A stretch of 64,000 nt of DNA, from positions 4,425,501 through 4,489,500 of the forward strand of contig NZ_CP029562.1 in assembly GCF_004136315.1 (NCBI RefSeq), in the 5' to 3' direction. Of this stretch, positions 10,709-26,830 are shown piece by piece. Each line of letters starts with the position of its first letter. Within the stretch, counting starts at the first letter, position 1. The notes beneath the pieces were generated by a model, which worked only from the letters and a program-made list of their open reading frames with translations, was not told the origin of the DNA and did no database searches. Origin of the DNA: Mesorhizobium sp. Pch-S. GTDB lineage: Bacteria; Pseudomonadota; Alphaproteobacteria; Rhizobiales; Rhizobiaceae. The position numbers and the translations under genes are program-made.

Positions 10709-10719
10709 GATCGAAATCC

Positions 10720-11919
10720 TCACCTCAGTGCCTCACACGCATCGATGATGCGTTTGCAGGCCAGATCGAGTTCGGTCCGCGACGACGCATATGAAATTCG
10801 CAGGAAGGATGGCGCCAGGAAGGCAGACCCTGGCACGGTCGCGATACCGAAGTCGTCGAGAAGATAGTTCGTGAAGTCGGTGTCGCAGGTGATGAGCTTT
10901 CCCTGCGCGGTGCGTTTGCCGATCAATCCCGCGCATGACGGAAATACATAGAAGGCGCCGTCCGGCACGGCGCAGGTCAAGCCCGGTGCCTGGTTGAGAA
11001 GGTCGACGACAAGATCACGCCGCTTCTGAAATTCTGCCCTGAAGTCCGCGACATGACACTGGTCACCGCCGATGGCTTCGATCGCAGCGTATTGGGAGAT
11101 CGAGCTGGTGTGCGATGACGTCTGGCCCTGGATCGTATTCATCGCCTTGATGAGGTGCATCGGTCCGGCAGCGTAACCCACCCGCCAACCCGTCATCGCA
11201 TTCGCCTTCGAGACGCCGTTCACGATCAGAACGCGCTCGGAAAGCTCCGGAGCGACGGCAAGGATGGTGGCGAAGGCAACATCATAGATAAGCTTCTCGT
11301 AGATGTCGTCCGAGAGGACATGCACCTGCGGGTGATCCCTCAGGACCTCGGCCAATGCCGCAAGCTCACGTGCCGAATAGACGGCGCCGGTCGGGTTGCT
11401 GGGCGAATTCAACACCAGCCACTTCGTGCGTTCCGTGATGGCGGCTGCAAGGGCTTCCGGCCTGAGCTTGAAGCCGTGTTCCGGTTCGCATGGCACCAGG
11501 ATCGCCGTTGCACCTGCCAGGGCCACCATATCGGGATAGGAAACCCAGCATGGGGTTGGAATGATCACTTCGTCGCCGGCATCCAGGCTCGCATACAGTG
11601 CATTGAAGATGACCTGCTTGGCGCCGCAGCCGACCGTGACCTGATCGACATCGTAGTCCAGCTGATAATCGCGCCTGAGTTTGGCGCAGATTGCCTGGCG
11701 CAGCGGCAGGACGCCGGCAACTGCCGTGTAGCGCGTGAGGCCTTCGCCGATGGCGCGCACGCCAGCGTCGCGGATCGATGGCGGAGTCGGGAAATCCGGC
11801 TCACCCTGGCTAAGCACGATGACGCTGACTCCACCGTTCCTCAGAGCCGTGGCGCGCGCGGTCATCGCTTTCGTTTCAGAAGGTCGGACAAGCTGGAGAC
11901 GGCGTGAAACGAGTGTCAA
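10720..11919 (-). CDS. Class I aminotransferase, probably phosphonoalanine transaminase
   Basis: This is a PLP fold-type I aminotransferase of about 399 residues, AspC-like. Motifs are SQGEPDFPTPP, LNSPSNPTGAVY, and the PLP lysine in VSKANAMTGWRVGY. There is no ATG; a TTG at 11919 (LTLVSRRLQ) aligns best with the family start, and a TTG at 11937 is also possible. It precedes the phosphonopyruvate hydrolase in one operon. In the known Variovorax pathway the equivalent enzyme converts 2-amino-3-phosphonopropionate to phosphonopyruvate. The specificity here is inferred from that pairing. Confidence 0.85.
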   Translation of the reverse strand: MTLVSRRLQLVRPSETKAMTARATALRNGGVSVIVLSQGEPDFPTPPSIRDAGVRAIGEGLTRYTAVAGVLPLRQAICAKLRRDYQLDYDVDQVTVGCGAKQVIFNALYASLDAGDEVIIPTPCWVSYPDMVALAGATAILVPCEPEHGFKLRPEALAAAITERTKWLVLNSPSNPTGAVYSARELAALAEVLRDHPQVHVLSDDIYEKLIYDVAFATILAVAPELSERVLIVNGVSKANAMTGWRVGYAAGPMHLIKAMNTIQGQTSSHTSSISQYAAIEAIGGDQCHVADFRAEFQKRRDLVVDLLNQAPGLTCAVPDGAFYVFPSCAGLIGKRTAQGKLITCDTDFTNYLLDDFGIATVPGSAFLAPSFLRISYASSRTELDLACKRIIDACEALR

Positions 11920-12029
11920 TGCGAATACCCCGGCCAAACGGTGCGGCCGGTCTGACGTATTTCATTCTTCCGGAGCAACCCGGGCCATCTAGCAACTGAA
12001 TGCTGCCCATCGACAATTTCGATGTGACT

Positions 12030-12938
12030 TCAGCCCGACTTCGCCTTTGCCGGTTCCTCGCGGCACAGGCGCACCAGCCATCTGCAGAACATCCGTGCCA
12101 GGTCCAGGTTCTGGCTGCGATCCACCGCGTGGGCGTGATACTGCATGCCGCTCGGTGTGCGTGTGCCCCTGACGACCTCCAGCAGTCCCTGCCTGATCAG
12201 GTCGCGAACAAGGACTTCCGGGGTCACCAGCAGGCTTCTGCCGTGTGCGATCGCCGGAAGCGCCAGATAATGATGATCGTAACGGGCCCCCAGCTTGATA
12301 TCGTCCTGACGGATGTCCATCCCCCTCAGCCAGGTGGGCAGGACATCGGGGCGTGACGTTATGGAAACGATCGGAACGCGCGTGACGATGTCGATGTCCT
12401 TGCCGGAGACCTGTCGCGGAGACCCGACACAAACCAGATCCTCGTTGAGAAGAACCCATCTGTCGGAAGGCTCGGCAAGGGCAAGATCACGTGTGATCAG
12501 CACATCGAAGTTGTCGGCGGATGTCGGCTGGGAGAGCGTCGTGACAACGTCCACGACGGCACCACCGGCCTCCGTTGAAAACGCCTGGATATTCGGGATG
12601 AGGAGCGTCGAGGCGAAGGTTGGCAGCGACGTCCTGACAAGAATGCGGTTCACGTCCGATTGCCGGCGCTTCATGCGCTGCGCTGTAAAATAGATCGTGT
12701 CGAGCGGCTCGCTGACCGCGGTTGCGAAGAGCCTGCCGAAAGCGGTGAGTTCCGAATTGCGTCCCCGCCGCTCGACAAGTTTCGAGCCAAGGTAAGCCTC
12801 GAGAACGGCGAGATGCCTGCTGACGGCGCTTTGCGCGATGCCCAGCACCGCGGCGGCCCGGGTCACGCTCCTTTCGCGCGCGATGACGGCAAAAGCGCGC
12901 ACGGAATTGAGCGGCAACGATTCTTGTCCCTCGGGCAA
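12030..12938 (-). CDS. LysR-family transcriptional regulator
   Basis: This is a 302-residue LysR protein. Its HTH is RSVTRAAAVLGIAQSAVSRHLAVLE, followed by a LysR effector-binding domain. The start is TTG at 12938. It sits upstream of the aminotransferase and hydrolase on the same strand and is divergent from the peptide-type ABC operon at 13158. The known pal operon of Variovorax is also controlled by a LysR protein, so phosphonoalanine sensing is a reasonable inference. Confidence 0.88.
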   Translation of the reverse strand: MPEGQESLPLNSVRAFAVIARERSVTRAAAVLGIAQSAVSRHLAVLEAYLGSKLVERRGRNSELTAFGRLFATAVSEPLDTIYFTAQRMKRRQSDVNRILVRTSLPTFASTLLIPNIQAFSTEAGGAVVDVVTTLSQPTSADNFDVLITRDLALAEPSDRWVLLNEDLVCVGSPRQVSGKDIDIVTRVPIVSITSRPDVLPTWLRGMDIRQDDIKLGARYDHHYLALPAIAHGRSLLVTPEVLVRDLIRQGLLEVVRGTRTPSGMQYHAHAVDRSQNLDLARMFCRWLVRLCREEPAKAKSG

Positions 12939-13157: not shown

Positions 13158-14126
13158 ATGCACATGTTGACTGCAAATTCTCAGGGCCGGCGTGCCGGCC
13201 TCATTGGTCCGGACGTCGGGCCGAACATCGCCCGCCTGCATCTCCGGCCGGATGAGGCGGCTGCGCCTGTCGCCAGCCCCGTTCCGTTGATCGAGATTCG
13301 AAATCTGACCGTTTCCTTTGGCGGCGCGCGCATCCTGCGCGGCATCGACCTCGCCATCGACGCTGGCGAAAGCATCGGCGTGATAGGCGGAAGCGGAAGT
13401 GGCAAGTCGATAACCTGGCTCGCCGCAATGGGCCTTTTGCCCAAGACCGCACAAATCGGCGGAAGTGTCCTGCTTCGTGGCAACGAGATCCTCGGCGCTT
13501 CCCGGTCGACGCTGGAGCGTCTGCGCGGCGGGACAATCGGCATCGTCTTCCAGGATGCCGCGGCAGCGCTCAACCCGGTTCGTAGCGTCGGCTGGCAGAT
13601 TGCCGAGGTGCTTCGTCTGCATCGCGGCATGACCGGCCAGCCTGCGCAGGAAGAAGCGAAGCGGTTGCTGGACCAGGTCGGGATTCCGGAAGCCAGACGG
13701 CGGCTCAGCTCCTATCCATTCGAACTCTCGGGTGGTCAGAACCAGCGTGTCATGATCGCGATGGCGCTGGCCGCACGACCGGCCATCCTAATCGCTGACG
13801 AGCCGACGACCGGTCTCGACGTGACGATCCAGGCCCAGATTCTCGATCTGCTGCGGGCGCTTCGGCGGGACATGGGAATGGCGCTTGTGATGATCTCACA
13901 CGACCTAGGCGTCGTCGCTGATGTTTGTGAGCGGACCTATGTCATGGATGCCGGTGTTGTCGTCGAAGAGATTTCGATCCGGGATCTCCACAGATCGGCG
14001 AAGCATTCCTACACAAGGCGGCTGGTCGCTGCAGCTCCGGCCTGGAACACCGGCAGGAACCCGGCGGATCACGCACCATCGCCAGACCGGGTATCGGTCA
14101 AGGCTACTGTCGAAAACGCCGCATGA
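13158..14126 (+). CDS. Dipeptide-type ABC transporter ATPase 1 (DppD-like)
   Basis: This is a 322-residue ATPase with Walker A GGSGSGKS, signature LSGGQ, Walker B ILIADEPT, and an H-loop in MISHD. The first 40 or so residues before LIEIRNLTVSFGG are not family-conserved, so the true start may be later. It is the first gene of a five-gene importer plus phosphoesterase operon, overlapping the next gene by four bases. The neighbouring phosphonate genes suggest the cargo could be a phosphonate-containing peptide or ester, but the family also carries peptides, opines and nickel. Confidence 0.9.
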   Translation: MHMLTANSQGRRAGLIGPDVGPNIARLHLRPDEAAAPVASPVPLIEIRNLTVSFGGARILRGIDLAIDAGESIGVIGGSGSGKSITWLAAMGLLPKTAQIGGSVLLRGNEILGASRSTLERLRGGTIGIVFQDAAAALNPVRSVGWQIAEVLRLHRGMTGQPAQEEAKRLLDQVGIPEARRRLSSYPFELSGGQNQRVMIAMALAARPAILIADEPTTGLDVTIQAQILDLLRALRRDMGMALVMISHDLGVVADVCERTYVMDAGVVVEEISIRDLHRSAKHSYTRRLVAAAPAWNTGRNPADHAPSPDRVSVKATVENAA

Positions 14127-15130
14127 CCGCCGTTCCCCTCGTCGAGGCCAGAGACCTCGTAAAGACCTACGGATCGCGCAGGCCCCTGACGAGCAAAGGG
14201 CAGCCGGTGCGCGCGGTCAACGGCGTCACGTTGAAGCTTCAGCGCGGCGAAACGCTCGGTCTCGTCGGAGAGTCCGGGTGTGGCAAATCCACGCTCGGGC
14301 GCCTGATTCTTGGCCTTGAGGCAGCCGATAGCGGCAGCGTGGACTTCGATGGCAGCCCTCTCGCCCCGCCTGGCAGCGCGGAATGGCGCCGGTCTCGCGC
14401 GCGCATGCAAATGGTGTTTCAGGATCCGCTGTCGGCGCTGGACCGCTTGCTGCCGATCGCTGCGCAGATCCGTGAACCACTGGTGATCCACAGGTTCGGA
14501 TCGCAGGCCCAGATGGATGAGCGTGTGGGCGACCTGCTAAACGCCGTCGGCCTCACTGCGGCTCAGGGAAAGCGATTGCCCGGCGAACTGTCAGGCGGCC
14601 AGAGGCAGCGCGCCGTGCTGGCAAGGGCGCTGGCGACGTCGCCGGATCTGTTGGTGTGCGACGAACCGACCTCGGCACTGGATATGCTGGTCCAGGCGCA
14701 GGTTCTCGACCTTTTCGCAGAAATCCAATCGGTATCGGGCGTGGCGATCCTGTTCATAAGCCATGACCTGCGCGCGCTCCGTCAGGTCAGCGACCGCGTG
14801 GCGGTGATGTACCTCGGCGGCATCGTCGAAGAAGGGCCGACCAGACAGGTGCTGGAGGCGCCACGCCATCCCTACACGCAGGCCCTGATCTCATCCGTGC
14901 CCGGTGTTCACGGATTGAACCCCAACCGTATCCTGCTTCGTGGCGAGCCGCCAAGCCCGACACAGCGGCAGCCCGGCTGTGCATTCCATCCGCGCTGTGC
15001 GGGTGCTGTCCACGCTTGCGGCCAGACGGTTCCGGCATTTCGTCCCGCTTCCAGCCCGTCCCACCGGGTCGCGTGCCACCTGCTGCCGACGGGCGGCACG
15101 CCGGCGGCCATCGCGAGGACAGTCGCATGA
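14123..15130 (+). CDS. Dipeptide-type ABC transporter ATPase 2 (DppF-like)
   Basis: This is a 335-residue ATPase with Walker [17 protein letters not shown], Walker [13 protein letters not shown], and the Cys-rich C-terminal oligopeptide/dipeptide extension ([18 protein letters not shown]). It overlaps the upstream ATPase by ATGA and the downstream permease by ATGA, so translational coupling is likely. It pairs with the 13158 product as the heterodimeric motor of an importer of the PepT/OppF class. Confidence 0.92.
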
Positions 15131-16059
15131 CGTTCGTGGTCGTAAGACTGGCACGCGCGCTGCTGACCATCCTGATCGTGGTCAGTTTCGCCTTCGTCGT
15201 GCTCCGACTGTCTGGCGATCCCGCGCTCGCCATTCTCACCAACGAGGCGCCGCCCGAGGCGTTGCTTGCGTTCCGGCAATCCTGGGGTCTCGACCAGCCT
15301 GTTCTGGTTCAGTACCTCACCTATCTTCGCACCATCCTGAGCGGCGATCTTGGCGTGTCGATGCGCGATGGGCGCGATGCGTTCACCGTCGTCGCCGAGC
15401 GCATTCCAATCACATTGGCGATAACCATCCCGGCGCTCGTGATCAGCATAGCCATCGGCGTCACCGCAGGCATATGTGCCGCCTTCAATCCCAACAGCCG
15501 TCTTGACCGTGGCATCATGCTGGGTGCGGTCGCAGGATTCACGGTTCCGTCTTTCGTTCTCGGGCTGCTGCTCGTTCTGGTGTTTTCCGTATGGCTCGGG
15601 ATCCTGCCATCCGGCGGTGCGCAGCATTGGACGAATGCGATCCTGCCGATCGTGACGCTTGGCGTCGGCAACGCGGCAACGCTTGCCCGGTACACCCGTG
15701 CGGCGCTGCTCGAGGTCCTCGACCGACCCTATGTCCGGACAGCAAGTGCAAAGGGAGTGCCGTGGCGGCTGACGATCCTGAGCCACGCCTTGCCCAACGC
15801 TGCCATTCCCATGGTGACAATCCTCGGTTTCCTCGTCGGGCAGCTTATCGCCGGCGCCGTGGTGGTCGAGAACGTGTTCTCCTGGCCAGGTGTCGGTCGC
15901 TTGCTCGTGGCGTCGGTGGCGAGCCGTGACCTGGCCGTCGTTCAATGCCTGCTGTTTTTCGTGGCGGCAACGATGATCGCCGCTAACATCGTTACCGACA
16001 TCCTCTACAGCCTGTTTGACCCGCGTCTTCGCGCTTCTACCCATGGAGGTGGCGCATGA
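15127..16059 (+). CDS. Dipeptide-type ABC permease 1 (DppB-like)
   Basis: This is a 310-residue inner-membrane permease with about six helices. The start at 15127 ([16 protein letters not shown]) overlaps the stop of the ATPase gene; a longer frame exists but overlaps 114 bases of it. The ATPase-docking motif is in EVLDRPYVRTASAKGVPW. The RQSWGLDQPVLVQYL segment is typical of the DppB N-terminus. It forms the membrane pore with the next gene. Confidence 0.92.
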   Translation: MTFVVVRLARALLTILIVVSFAFVVLRLSGDPALAILTNEAPPEALLAFRQSWGLDQPVLVQYLTYLRTILSGDLGVSMRDGRDAFTVVAERIPITLAITIPALVISIAIGVTAGICAAFNPNSRLDRGIMLGAVAGFTVPSFVLGLLLVLVFSVWLGILPSGGAQHWTNAILPIVTLGVGNAATLARYTRAALLEVLDRPYVRTASAKGVPWRLTILSHALPNAAIPMVTILGFLVGQLIAGAVVVENVFSWPGVGRLLVASVASRDLAVVQCLLFFVAATMIAANIVTDILYSLFDPRLRASTHGGGA

Positions 16060-16928
16060 GCGACGCCGTCAAACAGGAAGAGCAGCTTGGCATGGAGCCG
16101 CGGCGCCTTCCTTCCGCGAGCATATGCTGCGCGATTGGATGGCTCGGCCTACTGCTGGCGTTGGGCCTGTTCGGCCGATGGCTGGCGCCCTATGACCACA
16201 CGGCAATCGATCTGCTCGACCGGCTTGCCCCGCCAGTCGGATTTGGCGGCAGTTTCGCGCATCCCCTGGGAACCGACGAACTCGGTCGCGATCTCCTGTC
16301 CCGTCTGCTCGTGTCGATCCAGATGAGTGTGCTGATCGCATGTGGTGCGACGCTGCTGGGTGCGATTCTCGGGACGCTGCTGGGCTTTCTGGCCGCGCAT
16401 GTGAGGGGGACGGTCGAACAGGCAATCCTGGCGCTGGTCGATTTCCAGGCGACGATGCCGTTCCTCATCCTGGCGCTGGCGATCCTCGCTTTCATCGGCA
16501 ACTCGCTGGTTATCTTCATAGGACTGCTGGCCCTGCATGGCTGGGAACGCTATGCGCGCATCGCACGCGGCCTTGCTCTCAGTGCCAACACTCAAGGCTA
16601 TGCGGGGGCGGTCTGGCAGCTCGGAGCAAGTCCGGCACGGATCTACCTTGTCCACATCCTTCCCAATGTCATGGCGACGCTGATCGTGTCGATGACCATT
16701 GCGTTTCCCGAGATCGTGCTGGTGGAGAGCGGACTGAGCTTCCTGGGCCTCGGCGTCCAGCCGCCGGCTACGTCGCTTGGCTCCATGGTCGGTAATGGTC
16801 GTGACTACCTCGCAACCGCGCCCTGGATCCTGATCATTCCCGCAGCGACCATTTCCCTGATGGCACTGTCTGTATCCCTTGTCGGGGACTGGCTTCGCGA
16901 TCGGTTCGAAAGGACCGGATTGCGCTAG
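16056..16928 (+). CDS. Dipeptide-type ABC permease 2 (DppC-like)
   Basis: This is a 290-residue permease with the DppC N-terminal signature HPLGTDELGRDLLSRLL and the family C-terminus VESGLSFLGLGVQPPATSLGSM. It starts on ATGA overlapping the DppB stop. It is followed 45 bp later by the substrate-binding protein. The pair with 15127 makes a complete translocation pore. Confidence 0.93.
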   Translation: MSDAVKQEEQLGMEPRRLPSASICCAIGWLGLLLALGLFGRWLAPYDHTAIDLLDRLAPPVGFGGSFAHPLGTDELGRDLLSRLLVSIQMSVLIACGATLLGAILGTLLGFLAAHVRGTVEQAILALVDFQATMPFLILALAILAFIGNSLVIFIGLLALHGWERYARIARGLALSANTQGYAGAVWQLGASPARIYLVHILPNVMATLIVSMTIAFPEIVLVESGLSFLGLGVQPPATSLGSMVGNGRDYLATAPWILIIPAATISLMALSVSLVGDWLRDRFERTGLR

Positions 16929-16973
16929 GCGGTCCCAATCCTCGCAAACACCGACCTCAGCAGGAGCGCTCCC

Positions 16974-18530
16974 ATGCCGATCACCAGAAGGACTTTGATG
17001 AAGACCGCGGCGGCGAGTGTCGCGCTTTCGGCGTTCGCCCGGCCGACGCTCGCCGAAAAGGGCAGGTCCGGCCTCGTGGTGGCCCTGCCGGCCCAGCCCG
17101 ACTTCACCGATCCCGTCATGGCCAACAATACGCCGACCTTGCGGACGCTCTACAACGTCTATGACGCGCTGCTGCGGCTGGACTACAACGACAATCTCAA
17201 GGTCGTGCCGGCTCTCGCCCAAAGCTGGCGCAGGCTGGACCCAACCACGCTGGAATTCGTCCTGCGGCCAGACGTCAAATTCCATGACGGCTCGACGATG
17301 ACCGCCGACGATGTCGTCTTTTCCTTGAGCGAGACGCGCCGCAAGGGGCCCGAGGGGAAGGGCGCTACGGTTGCCGCACAATACCAGCGCAACATCGATA
17401 CTGTTGTTGCAGCGGACTCCCAGACGGTCCGCATCACCACGAAGGCGCCTGATCCGGCAATCGAGAAGAAACTAGCAGCCTGGTCATGCCAGATCGTGAG
17501 CAAGGCTGCCTTCGAGAAGGCTGGGAGCTGGCAGGCCTGGTTTCAGGCTCCTGTTGGGACCGGACCCTACAAGATCAAGGAAAACCGCAAGGATGTCGGC
17601 CTGATCCTGGAGGCGCATGACGACTACTGGGGCGGTCGCCCGCCGTTCGAGCGGATCGAGTTCCGTGTCGTTCCCGAAAGCGCCTCGAGGGTCAACGGCT
17701 TGCTGGCCGGAGATTACGACCTGGTCTCCGATCTGCCGCGCGACCAGTTCGATGCCATCGGGGGCAATGATGCGCTGGATCTGCTCGGAGGCGCCATCCT
17801 CAACATGCGAATCCTGGCAATCGACACCACCGCTCCCTGGCTCTCCGACCCGAACATTCGCAGGGCCATGAGCCTCGCCATCGATCGCGAACTGATCGTC
17901 AAGCAATTGTGGGCCGGCCGCATAGCGGTTCCGAATGGCGCACAGTACCCGATCTTTGGCGACGTCTACCTTCCCGAGTTCCCGGCGGTTGTCCATGATC
18001 CCAAACGGGCCGCCGAACTGGTCAAGGCTTCCGGCTATGGTGGCGAACCGATCCCCTACAGGCTGCTCAACAACTGGTATCCGAACCAGGTGCTGACCGC
18101 GCAGGTTCTGGCCGAGATGTGGAAAGCGGTCGGCCTCAACATCGCCCTGCAGCCGATGGAGAATTTCAGCCAGGTCTACCAGAAGCCGATCGGTGCTGTG
18201 TGGGATGAATCGATCGTGCCTGCCTGGCCCGACCCGACCGCGATGGTATGGCGGCAGTATGGGCCCGGCGGTGGCCTCAACAAGCTGGCGATCTGGAATT
18301 CGCCTGAATACCAGGAGATCGGTGCCAAGTTCGAGCAGAGCAGCGATGCCGACGCGCGTCGCAAACTGCAGCTGCGGTCGCTCGAGATCATCGCCGATCA
18401 GGTCCCATTCATCATCCTGCACAGCAACGGCGGCTTCTTTGCCAAGAAAAAAACCGTCGCCTGGGCGCCGTATCCCGCTTTGCCGATGGATTTCGGGCCG
18501 TTCAATGCAGCGACGATGCGGGGTATCTGA
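16974..18530 (+). CDS. Family 5 extracellular substrate-binding protein (Tat-type signal)
   Basis: This is a 518-residue SBP_bac_5 protein. The N-terminus MPITRRTLMKTAAASVALSAFARPTLA has a twin-arginine-like motif and hydrophobic core. The mature part shows LYNVYDALLRLDYNDN, WRRLDPTTLEFVLRPDVKFHDG and PVGTGPYKI, all standard for this family. It binds the cargo of the importer encoded just upstream. The ligand is not readable. The adjoining phosphoesterase and phosphonopyruvate hydrolase hint at a phosphonate or phosphodiester. Confidence 0.92.
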   Translation: MPITRRTLMKTAAASVALSAFARPTLAEKGRSGLVVALPAQPDFTDPVMANNTPTLRTLYNVYDALLRLDYNDNLKVVPALAQSWRRLDPTTLEFVLRPDVKFHDGSTMTADDVVFSLSETRRKGPEGKGATVAAQYQRNIDTVVAADSQTVRITTKAPDPAIEKKLAAWSCQIVSKAAFEKAGSWQAWFQAPVGTGPYKIKENRKDVGLILEAHDDYWGGRPPFERIEFRVVPESASRVNGLLAGDYDLVSDLPRDQFDAIGGNDALDLLGGAILNMRILAIDTTAPWLSDPNIRRAMSLAIDRELIVKQLWAGRIAVPNGAQYPIFGDVYLPEFPAVVHDPKRAAELVKASGYGGEPIPYRLLNNWYPNQVLTAQVLAEMWKAVGLNIALQPMENFSQVYQKPIGAVWDESIVPAWPDPTAMVWRQYGPGGGLNKLAIWNSPEYQEIGAKFEQSSDADARRKLQLRSLEIIADQVPFIILHSNGGFFAKKKTVAWAPYPALPMDFGPFNAATMRGI

Positions 18531-19366
18531 TGATCAAGATCATTCAAATCACGGATATCCATCTGGTGCCGCCCGGAACGGAGCTGCGGCGGCTCGATCC
18601 GGAGCGGCGTTTTCGCGACTGCCTGGAACAGATCGAGGCCGAGCACGGTGACGCCATGGCGGTGGTTGTCTCCGGTGATCTCACCGACAATGGCGATCGG
18701 CCGTCCTACGAGTTGCTGCGCGACATCCTCGCCGACTATCGCCTGCCACCGGTTTACCTGACGCTGGGCAACCACGATCGACGGGCAACGTTCTCGCATG
18801 TGTTCCCCCGCGCGATGGATGCCAGCACGGGTTCGGTGCAGGCGCAGATCGACCTCGGCTCGCAACAGGGCATCGTGCTCGACACCTGGATGGAGGGTGA
18901 GCACGCCGGCACGCTGTGCCGGCGGCGGCTCGACTGGCTGGCCGAGCGGCTGCGGCTGGACCCGCGACCGGCGCTGTTGTTCATGCATCATGCGCCGCTG
19001 CGGGTGGCCTTGAAGCGGATCGACCAGATTCCCCTTTTGAGCGACAACGAGCTTTGGGAAACGCTCGCCCCGTTCCGGGAGCGCATCCGGCATCTGTTTT
19101 TCGGGCATATGCATCGCAATGTCAGCGGCTCATGGCGGGGCATTCCCTTCACTGTGCTTTCCGGGACGACGCATCACGGCATGCTGGATTTCCAGACCGA
19201 ACTGATCAGGGACACGATCCTGGATCCCTTCTATGCGGTTATCCTGGTCGATGAGCGGGATGTCGTCGTGCATTTCAGTCAGGTCCGATTGCACTGGGAC
19301 GCAACGAGCCGGGGCCCGGGTCCGACCAACGTCGCCGTGCGCGAAAACTCCGCGATTCCTGCCTGA
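18530..19366 (+). CDS. Calcineurin-like metallophosphoesterase (CpdA/GpdQ class)
   Basis: This is a 278-residue class III phosphodiesterase family protein. The metal motifs are in order: TDIHL, GDLTDNG, GNHD, MHHAPL and GHMH. Family members cleave cyclic nucleotides, glycerophosphodiesters and some phosphonate esters. The start overlaps the binding-protein stop by one base (TGATG), so it belongs to the importer operon and probably acts in the cytoplasm on what is imported. Releasing a phosphonate from a diester or monoester is an inference from context; cAMP hydrolysis remains possible. Confidence 0.88.
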   Translation: MIKIIQITDIHLVPPGTELRRLDPERRFRDCLEQIEAEHGDAMAVVVSGDLTDNGDRPSYELLRDILADYRLPPVYLTLGNHDRRATFSHVFPRAMDASTGSVQAQIDLGSQQGIVLDTWMEGEHAGTLCRRRLDWLAERLRLDPRPALLFMHHAPLRVALKRIDQIPLLSDNELWETLAPFRERIRHLFFGHMHRNVSGSWRGIPFTVLSGTTHHGMLDFQTELIRDTILDPFYAVILVDERDVVVHFSQVRLHWDATSRGPGPTNVAVRENSAIPA

Positions 19367-19374
19367 ACGGGGAT

Positions 19375-20301
19375 CTAGGATCGATCCGTGTCCGCAGCTC
19401 GATGTGTGACGGCCATGGCCGCCACACCTGTCAGCACCAGTGCCAGGCCAACAAATTGCATCGCGGTCAGGGCTTCGCCGAAGCAGATGACGCCGATGGC
19501 AACGCCTATCGGAACACGCAGATAGGATTGTGCAGTGGTCACGACCGAACCCAGCGATCTGAGAAGCCTGAAATAGAGCACGAAGCCGATCGTGGTGGGA
19601 AAAATCACCAGCGCCGCCAGGCCAACCAGGGATCGAACGGATGGTGTGGCCTGCCAACCATCATCGAGGATGAAACTGAGTGGGATCAGAACCATCGCGC
19701 CGCACAGCAGGGAACCCGCCGCCGGTGCCGTAGGATCGAGGTGGCGGAAGCGCCAGCCGAGTGTCGCGGAGAACGCGAAGCAGACCGCTGCGCCAACAAC
19801 GGCAACCTGCTGCGGCAATCCGTCGAGCCATGCGCCGTGAGCGTTCTGACCGACAATAAGGACAACGCCGACAAGGCCGAGGACCACGCCGGCGATCCGC
19901 TTGGCACTGGAAACTTCACGCCGGGTCACGAATGCGCCGATCAGGAAGGCGAAGACAGGCGTGGTGGAACTCAGGATCGTGACGACGGATGTGTCGATCG
20001 TCTGCTGGGCCCAGGCAATCAGCGTATAGGGGATCACGCTGTTGAAACAGGCCTGCAGTGCGAGCGCGCCCCATTCCTCCCGCGTCCTCGGCAGGCTGAT
20101 ATGGTGATAGGCCATGAATGCCAGCAGCATCGCGCAGGCCAGGGCAGTCCGCCAGGCGACGAGTGTCGCCGGGGGGATTGTCTCGACGGCGATCTTGATC
20201 AGACCGAACGTCGCTCCCGAGAAGGCCGACATCAACAGCAGCAGCACGTAGTCATTGACCATGCCTCTTGCGGCGATGTCCCGGGGCTGGGAGACAGACA
20301 T
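19375..20301 (-). CDS. EamA/DMT-family transporter (candidate product exporter)
   Basis: This is a 308-residue protein with about ten membrane helices in two EamA repeats. The start at 20301 is preferred because AGGAGG lies six bases upstream; an ATG at 20307 overlaps the stop of the ligase gene. EamA transporters usually export amino acids and metabolites. As the last gene of the phosphonate biosynthesis operon it may export the finished product or phosphonoalanine. It is convergent with the phosphoesterase, 8 bp away. Confidence 0.87.
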   Translation of the reverse strand: MSVSQPRDIAARGMVNDYVLLLLMSAFSGATFGLIKIAVETIPPATLVAWRTALACAMLLAFMAYHHISLPRTREEWGALALQACFNSVIPYTLIAWAQQTIDTSVVTILSSTTPVFAFLIGAFVTRREVSSAKRIAGVVLGLVGVVLIVGQNAHGAWLDGLPQQVAVVGAAVCFAFSATLGWRFRHLDPTAPAAGSLLCGAMVLIPLSFILDDGWQATPSVRSLVGLAALVIFPTTIGFVLYFRLLRSLGSVVTTAQSYLRVPIGVAIGVICFGEALTAMQFVGLALVLTGVAAMAVTHRAADTDRS

Positions 20302-20303
20302 CG

Positions 20304-21971
20304 TCATCCTCCTGCTACGGCAAGCGGATCTGCACGCCCGGCTGGTGCTCCAACGCTGTCGATGAATGTCCTGCACCAGATCTCAAACAGGATTGCATTC
20401 CAGGCGTATCTGAAATTCGTCGGTGTCAGCCCTGACCGCACATCCGCCTTGATCCTGTCGGCTGATGATGGATCAAGCAGGCCGCGAGACCGGAGAGTCC
20501 TTGCAGGCAGGTAGTGTTCGAGCAATTCGAGAACCACGGTCTGCATTTCAGCGTCATAACGAAGGTGCTGGATGCCCTTTCGACGATAGCGGATCGAGGC
20601 CGGCACAATGGAGCGCAGCGAACGTCGGAAGAGCCGCTTCACCCCAAGCATGTTGACCTTGTCGGCGTCACGCATCTGCAGGGCAAATTCAATGAGCTGC
20701 TTGTGCGCGAACGGCGCGCGCAGCTCGATGCCATGATGGCGGGCCAGCAACGTTTGGGCACCGGTGCGCTCGTCCCAGGTATCGAGGTCGGATTTGAGCG
20801 CATCAAACAGTGTCGAGGTATGCCCGAGCCAATGCCGAAATCCGCCTGAAGCGTTGTCATGCCCGACGACAGAACAGGGTTCTGAACCGGGCTGAGCCTT
20901 GTGATGAACACCTTGGTCGACGGCTTGCTTGATGCCCAGGGGGCGAAGGTAACGCTCAACCGTCCTTTGCCGCCAGAGCCGGCGGTGGGTCGACATGCCA
21001 GCGAAGATCGCATCGCTGACGTTGCCGGAGTAGAGGACGTCGACATGCCTGGCAGCCAGACTCCAGAGTGCGCTGAGGCACGGCAGTTCATCATAGCCGC
21101 CGGGGTTGCCGAGGATCGCCACGGTCTCTTCGACATGATCACGAACGTCCGACGGGCCGACGAACAGTTCGTGATGGGAGGTCCCGAAATGCGCGGCCGT
21201 TGCGCGTGCGCCACGGATTTCGGGATCGTCGGGACCGTAGCCGACAGTGAACGTATCCAGTCGTTCGCCCGGATAGGCCTCACGCAACAAGGCCGTGATG
21301 GCCGCGGAATCGATGCCGCCGCTCAGCGTCACGCCGATCCGCAGGCCGCTGGTCGGGCCGCTGTCGCGAACAGCTTTCCGAATCCGGGAAAGCAGGACCC
21401 CAGGCGAGGACGCCTGCACCGGCAAAGGATAGTCGCCGGGCCGTGGATGCAAACGGTGGATCTTGTGCGCTTCCGGCGTGACAATCTCAAGGTAACCGGG
21501 CCTTACCGGTCTCACCGTCTTGAGGAATGATGTAAAAGGCGGCGCCCAGCCTTCGCGCAGGAAGTAGGCGATGGCCGACCCGTCATAGTCCCTGGCCACC
21601 CCTTCAAGTTGCAGGAGGTCTGCCATGGAAACGGCATATGCCAGCAGCGTCCGGGTGCGTGCTCTGTAAAGGGGGACCGTGCCGAACGGGTCGCGCGCCA
21701 GGTATGCGGTCCTGCTGGTGCCGTCGAACAGCGCGATCGCGAACTGCCCGTCCAGATGGTCGAAAGCTGCGATCCCGGTCTGCGCGAACAGCGTAATGAA
21801 TCTGGCGGGATCGAACTCGACCGAATCCATTCCATCCAGAAGACGCGGGCGGCCAGAGACCTCAAGCGACATTCCGCCGGTTTCGATCGCGAATCCCGGG
21901 CCTGTGATCGCCTTTGTCTGATTGGCGATGCCCTGCGTCGACGATGCTGAAAGTTCTATGACGGTGAACAT
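20304..21971 (-). CDS. Asparagine-synthetase-like amide ligase lacking the glutaminase Cys
   Basis: This is a 555-residue protein starting MFTVIELS at 21971, 2 bp after the previous stop. The N-terminal half has the class II glutaminase fold (FDHLDGQFAIALFDG, YLARDPFGTVPLY) but no Cys at position 2, so it cannot hydrolyse glutamine. The synthetase half has the PP-loop TLSGGIDSAAIT, SGNVSDAIFAG, and ELRAPFAHKQLIEFA. This loss also occurs in beta-lactam synthetase and carboxyethylarginine synthase, which form amides from an amine substrate. In this operon it may adenylate the carboxylate of phosphonoalanine or a partner and join an amine. Confidence 0.85.
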   Translation of the reverse strand: MFTVIELSASSTQGIANQTKAITGPGFAIETGGMSLEVSGRPRLLDGMDSVEFDPARFITLFAQTGIAAFDHLDGQFAIALFDGTSRTAYLARDPFGTVPLYRARTRTLLAYAVSMADLLQLEGVARDYDGSAIAYFLREGWAPPFTSFLKTVRPVRPGYLEIVTPEAHKIHRLHPRPGDYPLPVQASSPGVLLSRIRKAVRDSGPTSGLRIGVTLSGGIDSAAITALLREAYPGERLDTFTVGYGPDDPEIRGARATAAHFGTSHHELFVGPSDVRDHVEETVAILGNPGGYDELPCLSALWSLAARHVDVLYSGNVSDAIFAGMSTHRRLWRQRTVERYLRPLGIKQAVDQGVHHKAQPGSEPCSVVGHDNASGGFRHWLGHTSTLFDALKSDLDTWDERTGAQTLLARHHGIELRAPFAHKQLIEFALQMRDADKVNMLGVKRLFRRSLRSIVPASIRYRRKGIQHLRYDAEMQTVVLELLEHYLPARTLRSRGLLDPSSADRIKADVRSGLTPTNFRYAWNAILFEIWCRTFIDSVGAPAGRADPLAVAGG

Positions 21972-21973
21972 GC

Positions 21974-22687
21974 TCAACGCCCCGGGACATTCAACACGAG
22001 ACTGGTCGGCGACGGGGACAGGCCTGGCGCCGCAGGTTCGGAATTTTCGGCCTGACCGGGCCTCAGATCGGGCGTCTTCCCGACCCGCCACGGACCGAAG
22101 GCTAGGGCGAGCGAGGCGGCTACGCAGAAGACCGTGACAACCACATACATAGCCCCGGCCGTTTTGGGGATCCGGACCGGTGCGACGTGCAAGGCAGCCA
22201 GTGCAAAGAGAGCCAGGGCCAGCAGATCGGGAAAAGCGCCGGCTGGGATCAGGGGGCGGGCCAGGAACATCACAGCTGTCACCGGCAATGCATAGGTGGT
22301 CGGAACGCCGATGAAGCGTCCGCCGGGAGAGCCGAAGACATTGAAATAGCTCAGGCGCAGTGCGCTCGCCAGAACCAGTGTTGCCGCCGCGACGACCGAC
22401 AGAAATGAACCCTGTCCGACGCCGATCAGGGTGACCGCGGGAAAAACGCCCGCGCTCACCAGATCCGCCAGGGAGTCGAGGTTCTTGCCGACTTCCCCTG
22501 TCTCGGGCGCTCGGCCCCTGGTGCGCTTCGCGACCACACCATCGAGATGGTCGGCCAGCAGTGCCCAGAGCGCCACCGCGACACCTGCTTCGGGTTGGCC
22601 GACAAGCGCCAGGCTGATGCCGACAACGGAGAGGACGAGACCTGTACCGGTGATGGCGTTTGCGGGATCGGCAAGTTGACGGAGCAT
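21974..22687 (-). CDS. CDP-alcohol phosphatidyltransferase, PssA-like
   Basis: This is a 237-residue integral membrane protein. The CDP-alcohol motif begins DGVVAK and ends GKNLDSLADLVSAG, with the LDSLAD-VS signature of phosphatidylserine synthase type II. Between these parts are 12 residues (after AK), longer than the usual 8. About six helices follow. GGAGG lies seven bases before the ATG. The family transfers a phospho-alcohol from a CDP donor to an acceptor alcohol. Next to a PntC-like cytidylyltransferase it may attach a CMP-activated phosphonate to a lipid or polyol. The last 35 or so residues are a non-conserved tail. Confidence 0.85.
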   Translation of the reverse strand: MLRQLADPANAITGTGLVLSVVGISLALVGQPEAGVAVALWALLADHLDGVVAKRTRGRAPETGEVGKNLDSLADLVSAGVFPAVTLIGVGQGSFLSVVAAATLVLASALRLSYFNVFGSPGGRFIGVPTTYALPVTAVMFLARPLIPAGAFPDLLALALFALAALHVAPVRIPKTAGAMYVVVTVFCVAASLALAFGPWRVGKTPDLRPGQAENSEPAAPGLSPSPTSLVLNVPGR

Positions 22688-22715
22688 GTGCGTTCCTCCC
22701 CGGCCTGGGCCGTGC

Positions 22716-23510
22716 TCAAGAAGCTTGCGACAAAACGGGCAGCTCAGGCGGGGCGAAGAGATTTTCCGCCATTTTCAGATCCGCCTGGTTGTCGATTTCA
22801 TACCATTTGACGGTGTCGCAGCGCGCCGCAGCGATCTTCAGGCCGCGACCGATCAGCTGCGCCAGAACCTGCTCGGTGTAGGTCGTCCCGGCTCCCGTGC
22901 CGATCAGGTCGTCGAGGGCAGGGACGATGACGCCTGAAAGCGTCGCGCGGGAAAAACGGAACAGGTTCAGCGTCTTGAACAGCCGTGGCGCTCCTGGCTG
23001 GTTCAGGTCTGCCGCAGTCTGCTTCATGCGTACTTCCGCAATGGTCGAGGTCGGACCAAGAACGACGGCGGAGCCCTCCATGTCTTCCGTGAACGGCGCC
23101 ACCGCGGCCACATCGCCTGCGCCCGTCGCCAGCAGCGACACCAGGGCCTGCCTTTCGAAGAAGACGTCTCCTTCGAGCAGGAAGATATCTCCGCTCAGCA
23201 GGGTGTGACGTGCCAGCCAGAGTGAATAGGCGCTGCCGGTGCGGTCATAGACAGTGGATTCGACGTAGTCGATGTCGACGCCGGCAAAGCGGTCGCCACA
23301 GGCATACTCGATTGCATCCTTGCGGTAGCCGACGACGATGGTGGCCGATTTCACACCCATGGCGCCGAGATTGCGCAGTGCGTTGTGGATGATCGAAACG
23401 CCGAGAACCTCTACGAGGGGTTTTGGCCGGAAGTCTGTCAACGGCCGCAGCCGCGACCCCATGCCTGCAGCCAGGATGACTGCGCTTTGCGGTACTTCAG
23501 TCCTGAACAT
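22716..23510 (-). CDS. pntC: PntC-like phosphonate cytidylyltransferase
   Basis: This is a 264-residue LicC/PntC-type nucleotidyltransferase. It has LAAGMGSRLRPLTDFRPKPLVEV (nucleotide loop), TGSAYSLWLA, EGDVFF (metal) and WYEIDNQADLKMAE near the C-terminus. The start at 23510 has AAGGAAAA upstream and is 11 bp after the aminotransferase stop. PntC proteins commonly accompany PEP mutase and activate aminoethylphosphonate as a CMP derivative. No decarboxylase for aminoethylphosphonate is present, so phosphonoalanine or its amide is a likelier substrate here. Confidence 0.83.
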   Translation of the reverse strand: MFRTEVPQSAVILAAGMGSRLRPLTDFRPKPLVEVLGVSIIHNALRNLGAMGVKSATIVVGYRKDAIEYACGDRFAGVDIDYVESTVYDRTGSAYSLWLARHTLLSGDIFLLEGDVFFERQALVSLLATGAGDVAAVAPFTEDMEGSAVVLGPTSTIAEVRMKQTAADLNQPGAPRLFKTLNLFRFSRATLSGVIVPALDDLIGTGAGTTYTEQVLAQLIGRGLKIAAARCDTVKWYEIDNQADLKMAENLFAPPELPVLSQAS

Positions 23511-23521
23511 GAGAGTTTTCC

Positions 23522-24733
23522 TTAAGCTACGTTGCGGGATGCCTTGGTCCAAGATTCAAAGGTTTCGACGAGCCTCTCCAGACCAAGGGCAAGCTTGTCG
23601 TGGGTGATCCCGTAAGAGAGGCGCAGACCCATGTGGTCGCCGAAGGCGCTGCCCGACACACCGGCGACGCCGGCCTCGGCAAGCAAGGCATTTACGGCGT
23701 CATCCGCGCTCCGCGGCGTGGCTGAACCCGGGCCGATATCTAGAAGGCTGCCGAGATCCAGGTAGAAGTAGAATCCGCCCTGCGCCGATGGCAGCGGTGC
23801 AAGCGTCTGGCGCGACAGGATGTCGAGTCCTAGCCGTCGGGCCTGCGCCAGCTGATCAGAGAGGCGTCTTTCATAACTGCCGTCACCGCGCTGCAGATGC
23901 TCCAGGACCGCGTGCTGGGCGATCACATTGGGGTTCGATGTCGTGTGGGACTGCAGTGCCTTGGCTGCGTCGATCACGCTCTTTGGGCCGGCCATATACC
24001 CAATGCGCCAGCCCGTCAGGGCAAGTGTCTTGGAATACGCGTTGATGATGACGGTTCGCGACCGAACCTCCGGCACCAGCGAGACTATGGGGTGGTGGAC
24101 ATGCGGCGCATGCGCAAATGCCCCGTAGCACTCATCGAAGATGATCCAGAGATCGTGGCGGATCGCCAGGTTGGCGATGTGCTCAAGGGTGATCTGGTCA
24201 TAGACGGCGCCTGTCGGATTGCTGGGCGTATTGATCACGATCGCGCGTGTCTTCGGTGTGATGGCACGCTCGAGTTCCTGCGGTCTTGGAACAAAACCGC
24301 TGGCGCGTGTGTCGACATGCACCGGTCGTCCGCCAGCGATCAGAACCTGCGCCGGGAAGGTCGTCCAATAGGGACTCGGGATGATGACTTCGTCGCCCGG
24401 ATCCAGCAGGACCATCGCCGCATTGAACAGGGCCTGCTTGGCGCCGCTCGTGACCGCGATTTCGTCGGTATGCCAGACCTGCCCGGTTTCGCGGGACACC
24501 TTTGCGGCGAGGGCTTCGCGCAGTTCGCGAAGCCCGACCGTGTCGGTGTAGCGGTTCTCGCCGCGCTCAATGGCGGCCAGCGCACCCTCACGGATGCTCG
24601 GCGCAAGGTCAGACCATATTTCTCCGGCGGTAAGGTCGATGACCTCCTTGCCGGCATCGGACGCCGCCTTGGCGGCTGCGCGGGCGGCAGCCGTTCCCGA
24701 CGACGCAAAAAGCCTCGTACGTTGTGCCAACAT
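23522..24733 (-). CDS. Class I aminotransferase of the phosphonate operon
   Basis: This is a 403-residue PLP fold-type I aminotransferase. Motifs are TAGEIWSDLAPSIREG, INTPSNPTGAVYD, DECYGAF and the PLP lysine in YSKTLALTGWRIGY. It lies directly between the PEP mutase and pntC, all on one strand. PEP mutase equilibrium strongly favours PEP, so a coupled step is needed. Amination of phosphonopyruvate to phosphonoalanine by this enzyme is the likely pull. It is a distinct paralogue of the catabolic aminotransferase at 10720. Confidence 0.87.
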   Translation of the reverse strand: MLAQRTRLFASSGTAAARAAAKAASDAGKEVIDLTAGEIWSDLAPSIREGALAAIERGENRYTDTVGLRELREALAAKVSRETGQVWHTDEIAVTSGAKQALFNAAMVLLDPGDEVIIPSPYWTTFPAQVLIAGGRPVHVDTRASGFVPRPQELERAITPKTRAIVINTPSNPTGAVYDQITLEHIANLAIRHDLWIIFDECYGAFAHAPHVHHPIVSLVPEVRSRTVIINAYSKTLALTGWRIGYMAGPKSVIDAAKALQSHTTSNPNVIAQHAVLEHLQRGDGSYERRLSDQLAQARRLGLDILSRQTLAPLPSAQGGFYFYLDLGSLLDIGPGSATPRSADDAVNALLAEAGVAGVSGSAFGDHMGLRLSYGITHDKLALGLERLVETFESWTKASRNVA

Positions 24734-24787
24734 TGTCGGCCCTCATGATGTTGTTGTGATGGTTGGTGGAGCGGATCAGACCCGGCG

Positions 24788-25720
24788 CTACTCGGCGGCG
24801 ACCGCCGCCGGAGGAAGGTAACGTGTCTCGGCTTCCGCCAGTTCGCGGTAGTTGAGCAGGTCGAACACATCGTCCAGTGTGGCGACCTCGTTTTCGATGC
24901 CGGCGATCGTCCCTTCGCGAAGGATGCGTTCGCAGACCTGGCGCATGGCCGAGACGGCCGCACGCATGTTGTGGTTGGCCCAGATCACCGTCGATATCTT
25001 GGCCGCACGGTATTCATCCACTGGCGTGCGATAGTATTTGGTGGGGACGATCACCAGTGGCAGGCGGTTGCTCCATTCCCTGGCGAAGGCCAGGATCTCG
25101 CTGGCGTCCGACTTGCGTGAATGGATGAGGATCGCATCAGCGCCGGCGTCCGCATAGGCATGTGCACGCATCAGTGCTTCCTGCTGGTCGTAACCCGCGA
25201 TCAGCGCTTCGACGCGCGCGACCAGCACGAAGTCCTCGGAACCAAGCGTGTCCTTCACCGCGCGCAGCCGTCCGCAGAACTCACCGATCTCCGCCAGCGG
25301 ATGGCGATCACCGACGAAGGAGTTCATCTTGGGAAAGCCCTTGTCCTCAAGGCAGACGCCGGCTGCGCCATGCTGGAACAGCTTCTTGGCCGCGAGCCGC
25401 GCATTGTTGAAATTCCCAAAGCCGCTGTCTCCATCGACAAGGATCGGGATTGAAGCCGCATCGGCCATCCGCTCGACGACTTCGACGAGTTGCGTCCAGG
25501 ATGCTTCATTCGCATCGCGATAACCAAGGCTCGATGCAATCGACAGGCCGGACGCCCATAGTCCCTTGAAGCCTGCGCGCTCCGCGATGGTGGCCGAAAG
25601 CGCGTCATGCGCTTCCATGATGAAACCGAGTGTATTGGCCTGGATTATTCCCCGCAGGCTCGGCTTGGCTGCTGCCGAAACGACGGTGTTTGAAAGGCCG
25701 GATTCTCCAACGTGCGACAT
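24788..25720 (-). CDS. pepM: Phosphoenolpyruvate mutase
   Basis: This is a protein of about 310 residues with all PEP mutase marks: GDSGFGN for Mg2+/substrate binding, and the gating-loop motif EDKGFPKMNS (EDK-x5-NS) that separates mutases from hydrolases. It converts PEP to phosphonopyruvate, forming the C-P bond, and so defines a phosphonate biosynthesis locus. The start at 25720 (MSHVGESG) has GGAG ten bases upstream; in-frame starts at 25747 and 25765 are possible. It is the first gene of a six-gene operon and divergent from an IclR regulator. Confidence 0.92.
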   Translation of the reverse strand: MSHVGESGLSNTVVSAAAKPSLRGIIQANTLGFIMEAHDALSATIAERAGFKGLWASGLSIASSLGYRDANEASWTQLVEVVERMADAASIPILVDGDSGFGNFNNARLAAKKLFQHGAAGVCLEDKGFPKMNSFVGDRHPLAEIGEFCGRLRAVKDTLGSEDFVLVARVEALIAGYDQQEALMRAHAYADAGADAILIHSRKSDASEILAFAREWSNRLPLVIVPTKYYRTPVDEYRAAKISTVIWANHNMRAAVSAMRQVCERILREGTIAGIENEVATLDDVFDLLNYRELAEAETRYLPPAAVAAE

Positions 25721-25891
25721 CACTGCTCGCTCCCAGTTGAGGTGCATTGCCGTTCGTTCCGACAATTCAAGCGTGAGGCGTTTCCGCCGGCCTTGTCACG
25801 GGCCGGCCGATTGGGAAGCGCCACAATTTGCTTGAGCGTCACCGAACTGTCATACGTTAGTCACACCACATTATGGTTGTCAATTCAAAAA

Positions 25892-25911
25892 ATATCCGGA
25901 TTATGGATATC
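25892..25911. promoter_or_regulatory. Candidate IclR operator in pepM-iclR intergenic region
   Basis: ATATCC (25892-25897) and GGATAT (25905-25910) form an inverted repeat with a 7-nt spacer. The overlapping 12-mer ATTATGGATATC (25900-25911) matches ATTACGGATATC at 26915-26926 in front of the amino-acid importer, at 11 of 12 positions. The position between divergent genes suits a regulator site. Confidence 0.48.
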
Positions 25912-26008
25912 ACTTTTTAGCCGGCTATGGACAAATGGGCATAGACTTGTCAAGCTGGGCGGTATCAGGCATTTGGGAGGCAACTGGGTCCTGAGATACA
26001 CGCTGCTG

Positions 26009-26830
26009 ATGCCAAAGACGGTCAAAGAGACGGAGCTGGCGAGCGGGACGCAACTTCTGGACCGCGCGGTAGCGGTGCTGAATTTCGTCGGCCAGGCGGC
26101 AGGGTCGGGCGGCGCCAGCATCGCCGACATCAGTGACGGGCTGAATCTCAAGCAGCCGACCGCGCATCGGATCGCCGTCGCCCTTGAGCGCCATCGGCTG
26201 ATCGATCGCGACAGCCTCACAAAGCGCTACAGGCTCGGGCTGGGCCTTTTTGTTCTGGGCGTCCATGCTGCCGACGAGTCCGGGCTGCGTACACTGGCGC
26301 AGCCGGCGCTGACGCGCATCGGCGCGGCCACCGGCGACACCGTCTTCCTGATGGCCCGGTCGGGGGTCAATGCGATCTGCGTGGATCGTCACCAGGGCAC
26401 CTACATGATTGACAGCCTTACCGGCGGCATAGGCGGGCAGATACCGCTGGGTGTCGGCTCGGCCAGTCTGGCGATCCTGGCTTCATTGCCGCCGCTGGAG
26501 GCCGACGCCATCATCGAGGCGAACTCGCCGCTCTATCCGCAGCACCATGGCCTGACGGCGGGTCGCGTCCGCAGCCTGCTGCCGGCAATACGCCAGGAAG
26601 GTTATGCTCTCGACAGGGGTGACCTGGTCGCGGGGATATCGGCGTTCGCCGTCGCGATCAGCCCTGGGCAAAGGCCGAGCGGGGTGGCAATCGCCGTGAA
26701 CATGACCAGCGCGAGGCTGCCGCAAGAGCGGTTCGAACAGTTGCTTCCGCTGGTCCGGCGGGAAGTGCAGCAGCTGGAAGAGCAGATCAATCCGCTGGAG
26801 ATCATGTTCCGTCAGCGCCCGGCCAGGTGA
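26009..26830 (+). CDS. IclR-family transcriptional regulator
   Basis: This is a 273-residue regulator starting at ATG 26009 (MPKTVKETELASG); the long open frame upstream has no coding character. The N-terminal wHTH is GGASIADISDGLNLKQPTAHRIAVALERHRLI. The C-terminal IclR effector domain includes RHQGTYMIDSLTGGIGGQIPLGVGSASLAILA. It is divergent from pepM across 288 bases and likely controls the phosphonate operon. A matching sequence upstream of 26967 suggests it also controls the importer there. Confidence 0.9.
   Translation: MPKTVKETELASGTQLLDRAVAVLNFVGQAAGSGGASIADISDGLNLKQPTAHRIAVALERHRLIDRDSLTKRYRLGLGLFVLGVHAADESGLRTLAQPALTRIGAATGDTVFLMARSGVNAICVDRHQGTYMIDSLTGGIGGQIPLGVGSASLAILASLPPLEADAIIEANSPLYPQHHGLTAGRVRSLLPAIRQEGYALDRGDLVAGISAFAVAISPGQRPSGVAIAVNMTSARLPQERFEQLLPLVRREVQQLEEQINPLEIMFRQRPAR

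Follow-up and report, generated by a model that had tools for sequence, protein, structure and literature searches.

A 64,000-nucleotide stretch of Mesorhizobium sp. Pch-S (contig NZ_CP029562.1, positions 4,425,501 to 4,489,500; the window), from a closed genome of 6.62 Mb in one contig, contains what we propose to be a single locus for making and breaking a phosphonate. From the gene families present, their order and conservation, and the exchange of cassettes among related loci we infer substrates, products, an acceptor, directions of transport and a social role, and the reading we favour—probable, if well short of certain—is an opine- or rhizopine-like system in which an ester of phosphonoalanine is made, exported, re-imported and mineralised. 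The whole unit extends from about 9836 to 25765. The original prediction placed a six-gene operon at 19375..25720, and the six genes are there as uninterrupted minus-strand reading frames in the order given, but they form only part of the unit; the degradation arm was missed. That arm, a LysR-palB-palA-like run on the same strand (9836-12938), lies about 6 kb past the end of the operon, and an ATP-binding cassette (ABC) importer and a metallophosphoesterase occupy the opposite strand between the make and break arms. The closest named locus is that of Mesorhizobium loti LU, whose pepM is 98% identical.

The make arm begins with pepM (24788..25765, minus strand, exact start uncertain), whose product scores 352 bits against TIGR02320 (curated cut-off 319.55), matches PDB 1m1b at E=1.6e-98 and carries EDKGFPKMNS, the EDKx5NS motif that had been noted; it would convert phosphoenolpyruvate (PEP) to phosphonopyruvate. 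The adjoining gene (23522..24733, minus strand) encodes an aspartate-aminotransferase (AspAT)-like protein, as claimed, and an equivalent follows pepM in 39 related loci sharing the core described below. The usual route to 2-aminoethylphosphonate (AEP) runs through phosphonopyruvate decarboxylase (Ppd), and the claim that Ppd is missing holds genome-wide, where the best match reaches 32.6 bits against a cut-off of 312.5. Because no decarboxylase in the genome exceeds that cut-off, the aminotransferase is the likely pulling step, drawing phosphonopyruvate to phosphonoalanine; the predicted phosphonoalanine branch thus agrees with an AspAT-type gene beside pepM, and the neighbouring palAB-like pair would degrade the same compound. 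A transaminase, PnaA of Streptomyces, is reported as the pulling step after PepM (PMC11867202). The phosphonoalamide pathway to which it belongs (PnaD/PnaA/PnaB/PnaC) resembles the window in combining PepM with an AspAT-type transaminase to give phosphonoalanine, but employs ATP-grasp peptide ligases where the window has a predicted activation by cytidine monophosphate (CMP), a CDP-alcohol transferase and an AsnB-like ligase. This early branch is not in itself new, since the 2022 inventory of phosphonate branch points by Li and Horsman reportedly counts phosphonoalanine clusters.

The third gene (22716..23552, minus strand) encodes the expected LicC/PntC-like nucleotidyltransferase (PDB 1jyk, E=7.1e-11; 6pd1, E=5.4e-9), although its top PDB match is 7whr, an unspecified nucleotidyl transferase. 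Family evidence is consistent with the proposed CMP activation, in which this enzyme and cytidine triphosphate would turn phosphonoalanine into CMP-phosphonoalanine. PntC-dependent tailoring likewise has a LicC-like cytidylyltransferase near pepM; the two characterised PntC enzymes are reported to prefer AEP (PMC6697681), whereas the Pch-S genome has no Ppd over cut-off.

The fourth gene (21974..22687, minus strand; PF01066) encodes a CDP-alcohol phosphotransferase that had been described as PssA-type. Its nearest PDB entry is indeed a phosphatidylserine (PS) synthase, MjPSS (7pow, E=1.5e-8), and the four catalytic Asp residues of the CDP-alcohol motif are kept, as they are invariantly in 29 aligned relatives, with Lys at the position where AR is canonical. 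It is nevertheless not a plain PssA: it falls below curated TIGR00473 (79.2 versus 107 bits), and it has RLSYF, in which the first Arg of RLxRF is retained and the serine-binding Arg is replaced by Tyr114. At least 90% of the 29 sequences have this Tyr, whereas the housekeeping PssA elsewhere in the genome carries RLARF. Structures of MjPSS are reported to show serine coordinated by RLARF (PMC8727905; see also PMC8633023), and replacement of the corresponding R189 in Cho1 to raise the Km for serine (PMC8727905). A plain PS synthase is ruled out by this motif; because the serine-binding Arg is Tyr114, there must have been a change of acceptor, of donor or of both, and the alcohol to which the enzyme would esterify phosphonoalanine is probably one other than serine.

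The original prediction had the product placed on a lipid or polyol as a headgroup, and a phosphonolipid or cell-surface decoration can still be argued. The transferase would then move phosphonoalanine from CMP to diacylglycerol or a surface polyol, giving an analogue of PS, and the importer and palAB would be separate scavenging genes. The transferase family is membrane-bound and the window member lies nearest PS synthase, PntC enzymes have been linked to surface tailoring (PMC6697681), and phosphonoalanine is given in a review as a phosphonolipid component (PMC10574752). We consider this explanation unlikely in view of the conserved layout documented below, and EamA or major facilitator superfamily (MFS) exporters together with a phosphoesterase are better suited to a soluble product.

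The fifth gene (20304..21971, minus strand) encodes the Cys-less AsnB-like ligase: it begins MFTVIE and so lacks Cys2. Scored among the 8000 best-sharing candidates, it falls within a 17-member clade (members out to 5.6e-74, the next protein being at 1.4e-34), none of which, with starts as annotated at source, has Cys at position 2 (0/17; the window protein and P0002-P0017). The window protein retains the PP-loop SGGIDS and scores below curated TIGR01536 (166.2 versus 267.1 bits); the clade keeps a Lys aligned to what we take to be the AsnB active-site Lys. The Glu of SGEGSD has a role in the AsnB synthetase site, and here SGE is SGN, invariantly in 16 aligned sequences. An SGGxDS PP-loop without the amidotransferase Cys is a hallmark of beta-lactam synthetases, and the clade profile matches beta-lactam synthetase 1jgt at E=1.9e-15, more weakly than AsnB 1ct9 (4e-33). 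The chemistry is likely to be ATP-driven amide bond formation in which glutamine is not the nitrogen source, and the ligase would add an amide to the product. Seven of the 17 members lie on contigs of the same sizes as contigs of the transferase family (10469, 33471, 67907, 8211, 18850, 8631 and 45043 bases), and on pMLa of M. japonicum a member lies about 3 kb after the transferase gene; the AsnB-like match of G099 and G139 is on the import strand instead of the make strand. The locus also offers a clade of Cys-less AsnB-like ligases. Member P0002, 87% identical to the window ligase, is recorded as belonging to Mycolicibacterium aubagnense, on a contig of 6.47 Mb, and that genome is probably mislabelled. 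The sixth gene (19375..20307, minus strand), whose start overlaps the asnB stop, encodes the EamA-family exporter (PF00892) that had been recognised, and would export the soluble phosphonate ester.

On the plus strand lie a Dpp-type ABC transporter, which would re-import the ester, and a phosphoesterase to cleave it. The transporter comprises two ATPases (13158..14126, from a family scan; 14123..15130, an open reading frame (ORF) read by eye, 36% identical to the first as query), two permeases (15016..16059, scanned as 15079-16059 with its true start further in; 16056..16928, PF00528) and a dipeptide/nickel-type solute-binding protein (16974..18530; SBP_bac_5, 260.5 bits). The SpdA-like metallophosphoesterase (18530..19366; PF00149) would cleave the phosphonate ester; it scores 206 bits against NF050112, under the cut-off of 400, and is kept at 87-94% identity in three relatives with the same six genes (L015, L016 and L030).

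The break arm, on the minus strand, consists of a LysR regulator in the palR position (12030..12938; HTH_1), a palB-like AspAT-like aminotransferase (10720..11937) and a palA-like phosphonopyruvate hydrolase (9836..10723). Under LysR control, PalB would convert phosphonoalanine to phosphonopyruvate, which PalA would hydrolyse to pyruvate and phosphate. The closest structure to the palA product is the solved PalA, PDB 2dua (E=8.4e-105), and its loop EDKSFPKVTS has TS where PepM has NS; among the palA ORFs listed, TS is present in 17 of 18 and SS in one. It is 39% identical to the operon PepM. The palB product is 35% identical to the operon aminotransferase and falls below every curated cut-off listed. 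A LysR, PalA and PalB set for phosphonoalanine degradation is described in Variovorax Pal2 (palRABCDE), together with putative phosphonoalanine transporters; in the available text of that report no linked biosynthesis is described (PMC10574752), whereas the window has putative biosynthesis genes beside it.

Most make steps therefore face a break counterpart: PepM and PalA, the two aminotransferases, ester formation and cleavage, exporter and importer. Cytidylyl transfer and the AsnB-like step are without an evident counterpart in the window. A C-P bond is not readily used by cells that lack such enzymes or C-P lyase, and the product would be a carbon, nitrogen and phosphorus compound readily used only by relatives with a matching importer and break arm.

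Systems of this logic are familiar from opines. Agrocinopine, a phosphorus diester in Agrobacterium, is reported to be taken up with a Dpp-like binding protein and cleaved by the phosphodiesterase AccF (PMC4526662), and the window, judged from its genes, would share the phosphorus-diester compound, the Dpp-like ABC uptake and the cleavage. It differs in that agrocinopine, a sugar phosphodiester, is produced by tumour cells of the plant under the direction of T-DNA, whereas in the window strain a C-P compound would be synthesised by the bacterium; agrocinopine is the closest working analogue. Rhizopine mos and moc genes link synthesis and catabolism in rhizobia, and the window shows the opine-like hallmark of linked importer and catabolic genes. 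Rhizopine itself is given as an inositol derivative (PMC3538637), while the window locus has phosphonate chemistry in a strain without nifH.

A locus scan kept 80 of 115 confirmed pepM relatives. In 39 of these 80, the core genes for pepM, aminotransferase, nucleotidyltransferase and transferase share a strand and stand in this order, within 4 kb in 37 cases, and hosts of the core include Mesorhizobium, Bradyrhizobium, Sinorhizobium, Rhizobium, Phyllobacterium, Methylosinus, Chelatococcus, Steroidobacter and metagenome-assembled genomes (MAGs). The exact six-gene order is found in three of the 80 (L015, L016 and L030) in addition to the window. The gene order does recur, which the original prediction had named as support for a conserved system; what that prediction did not include is that the four-gene core is widespread in rhizobia and its tailoring genes are exchangeable. 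The whole make-and-break layout is present, as annotated by others, on S. meliloti plasmid pCpl, with an MFS exporter, and on M. loti 582 p_1, where an IS5 transposase intervenes and the CDP-alcohol gene stands apart on the far side of pepM.

Co-occurrence was examined in 146 Mesorhizobium genomes, with palA defined by at least 66% identity (the pepM clade is 36-43% identical to palA). Both genes are present in 24 genomes, palA alone in 2, pepM alone in 17 and neither in 103 (26 with palA and 41 with pepM in all; p=1.9e-14), and 22 genomes have palA on the same strand as pepM, 12.4-24.4 kb downstream. Importer and palAB thus keep a set order and strand relative to the operon (for palA, in these 22 genomes), which argues against the phosphonolipid explanation; because importer, phosphoesterase and palAB stand in a layout conserved across many genomes, a soluble, re-imported compound is favoured, and both the lipid headgroup and a plain phosphonolipid are weakened. 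The same data bear on whether the neighbourhood arose by chance, as a mobile island that collected phosphonate genes and whose palAB serves only environmental phosphonoalanine. Relatives are often plasmid-borne (pepM matches at E <= 1e-60 on 84 plasmid records, 49 of them typed conjugative), but order, strand and a 12-24 kb spacing are fixed and exchange affects the middle between conserved ends, and we give this explanation very little credence.

The genes that follow the core vary among Cys-less AsnB with EamA, MocR-like pyridoxal phosphate (PLP) proteins with or without a methyltransferase, CobD-like PLP and SelA-like PLP proteins, and the ABC importers fall into a Dpp-like and a UgpB/UgpE-like family. 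With MocR-like PLP genes counted solely on the strand of pepM, since the import arm of many loci contains a further copy, the Ugp type is present in 17 of 17 loci with such a gene and in 1 of 12 without (p=3.5e-7, 29 loci), a value that overstates the association because four loci are near-copies and many of the PLP matches are only 30-39% identical. The single exception is G106, G094 carries both importer types, and G211 was left out since its stretch holds no importer; counted on either strand, the association is 18 of 18. Comparison of the window with G212 illustrates the exchange: the ends are alike (pepM 95%, aminotransferase 86%, nucleotidyltransferase 91%, transferase 82%, LysR 93%, palB 82%, palA 90%), and the middle of G212 has no match to the window AsnB, EamA, Dpp importer or metallophosphoesterase and holds a Ugp-type importer. 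The middle genes are exchanged as cassettes between conserved ends. Importer type most simply tracks tailoring type because the tailored product has to be recognised for uptake, and this again speaks against a lipid product with separate scavenging.

Evidence for expression comes from M. loti R7A, where lacZ fusions to pepM (msi327), aatA (msi326) and asnB (msi323) are reported to give 827, 2456 and 862 units in nodules, less than 20 units in broth, and 7.7, 16.2 and 22.0 units in a nifA2 mutant (PMC3538637). NifA is thought by those authors not to act directly, the mutants are fully effective, i.e. the genes are dispensable for fixation, and the main text of that report yielded no instance of the word "phosphonate" (PMC3538637). 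Nodule-specific expression without a need in fixation is a likeness to rhizopine mos/moc. In our Mesorhizobium set nifH (E <= 1e-60) is present in 37 of 41 pepM genomes and 63 of 105 others (p=3e-4), and pepM is within 60 kb of nifH in 16 genomes. An antibiotic cluster, in which a phosphonate antimetabolite is made and PalB, PalA and the phosphoesterase provide self-protection, would account for the exporter, and phosphonoalanine peptides are reported to be antibacterial (PMC11867202). We give it little credence: self-protection would not predict a dedicated importer that changes with the tailoring genes, and the R7A fusions are strongly on in nodules and below 20 units in broth.

A number of observations weigh against the make-and-break reading, whose product is so far a predicted phosphonate ester. 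The R7A run probably belongs to the L033 cluster type, since the gene order at L033, where redoxin, RpoN and P450 genes precede pepM, agrees with that of the R7A island, and R7A would share the genes of L033 between aatA and asnB; loci of this type include a methyltransferase gene, their AsnB has Cys2, their PepM carries EDT instead of EDK, and palA is missing from all five genomes searched (L025, L026, L032, L033 and L036), so that the R7A nodule evidence concerns a cousin of the window locus. No nifH match was found in the genomes of the window strain, G131, G142 and G212, and for these a nodule role is inapplicable; a nodule rhizopine role is ruled out for the window strain, and the make-and-break logic alone holds. 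Within Mesorhizobium palA is absent in 17 of the 41 pepM-bearing genomes, related genomes in these counts are not independent, and in G211 palA is on the other strand, 5 kb from pepM. Among 47 genomes picked for a pepM locus, 28 have palA and 19 do not. The 30 tabulated loci, chosen for nearby palA (a choice of which only the 146-genome test is free), include 27 with LysR, 22 with clear palB, 29 with an importer and 18 with a phosphoesterase, leaving 8 without clear palB and 12 without phosphoesterase. The tailoring test leans in part on the low-identity PLP matches already given. In the window itself PalA, at 373.1 bits, is 1.3 under the curated TIGR02321 cut-off of 374.4, and the genome also has C-P lyase PhnJ, so that palAB is not the sole possible phosphonate route.

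We nevertheless suggest, tentatively, a wider interpretation that extends the opine and rhizopine idea to phosphonate chemistry. Self-made phosphonate opines could form a widespread class in rhizobia: symbiosis-island relatives would make a tailored phosphonoalanine ester in nodules, kin with the matching importer and palA arm would consume it, and tailoring and importer cassettes would be exchanged jointly between conserved ends, giving private dialects of one phosphorus currency. This is possible rather than probable. The natural role of phosphonoalanine has been called unclear (PMC11867202), and bacterial phosphonates are mostly discussed as surface decoration or antibiotics (PMC6697681, PMC11867202); if the interpretation is right, paired enzymes for making and unmaking would represent a third role, as private nutrient or signal. 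Product and importer seem to change together, offering a system for the study of kin-directed exchange, and the idea is directly testable because related genes are nodule-expressed in the tractable R7A, for which mutants exist. Among the literature matches listed, largely without subscription papers, there is no earlier report of a linked make-and-break phosphonate locus or a phosphonate opine, and none is described in the available text of a palAB survey (PMC8154272) or of a study of a Bradyrhizobium pepM-ppd cluster (PMC10708946).

Several variants were observed among the related loci. The Lys of EDKx5NS is Ser or Thr (EDS/EDT) in 20 of 74 pepM ORFs (L025-L028, L032, L033, L036, L038, L049, L063, L071, L075, L077, L079-L081, L084, L086, L087 and L092), placing mutase activity there in doubt, and L063, L071 and L080 show one further departure from the motif. 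In Rhodospirillales MAGs (L088, L089, L091, L093 and L094) PepM seems to be joined to a nucleotidyltransferase-like domain, as judged by protein size and, in one example, by eye. In L025 (17954-19660) and relatives a 568-residue protein has a C-terminal CobD-like PLP domain and an N-terminal part that is nucleotidyltransferase-like by eye, which Pfam did not call; it presumably resembles FrbH and could decarboxylate a CMP-bound amino phosphonate. The Bradyrhizobium loci L035, L039-L044 and L047 have, as named by eye, a methyltransferase-like gene and a decarboxylase-like thiamine pyrophosphate enzyme in place of the genes following pepM in the core. In make-and-break loci L128-L132, which contain an HpcH/HpaI-aldolase gene, palA has no clear palB next to it, and the break-arm transaminase is not obvious. 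Two agrobacterial plasmids, L145 (pTi_CFBP1905, named as a Ti plasmid) and L157 (pAvCG412), carry pepM, aminotransferase, nucleotidyltransferase, oxidoreductase and CDP-alcohol transferase genes, followed by genes for ornithine cyclodeaminase, alanine racemase and cysteine synthase and an ABC importer.

Upstream of the window pepM no NifA/sigma-54 promoter was found in the window; a looser sigma-54-type pattern matches once over the whole window (0.79 expected), within the transporter region. Across the 80 loci the sigma-54 pattern is present in three upstream stretches, copies related to one another, against 0.4% of random pieces; TGT-N10-ACA occurs in 22, against 7.9%. Neither comparison controlled for base composition, and we draw no conclusion. 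The three are L052, L054 and L056, with a -24/-12-like site about 230-240 bases before the start of the pepM match, and TGT-N10-ACA boxes lie upstream of it in L054 and L056. Divergent from the operon is a gene for an IclR-type regulator (25712..26830, plus strand; PF01614, PF09339), whose true start is probably further in, and to the left of the locus are two similar ORFs, named by eye as WrbA-like flavoproteins, at 837-1436 and 8868-9470.

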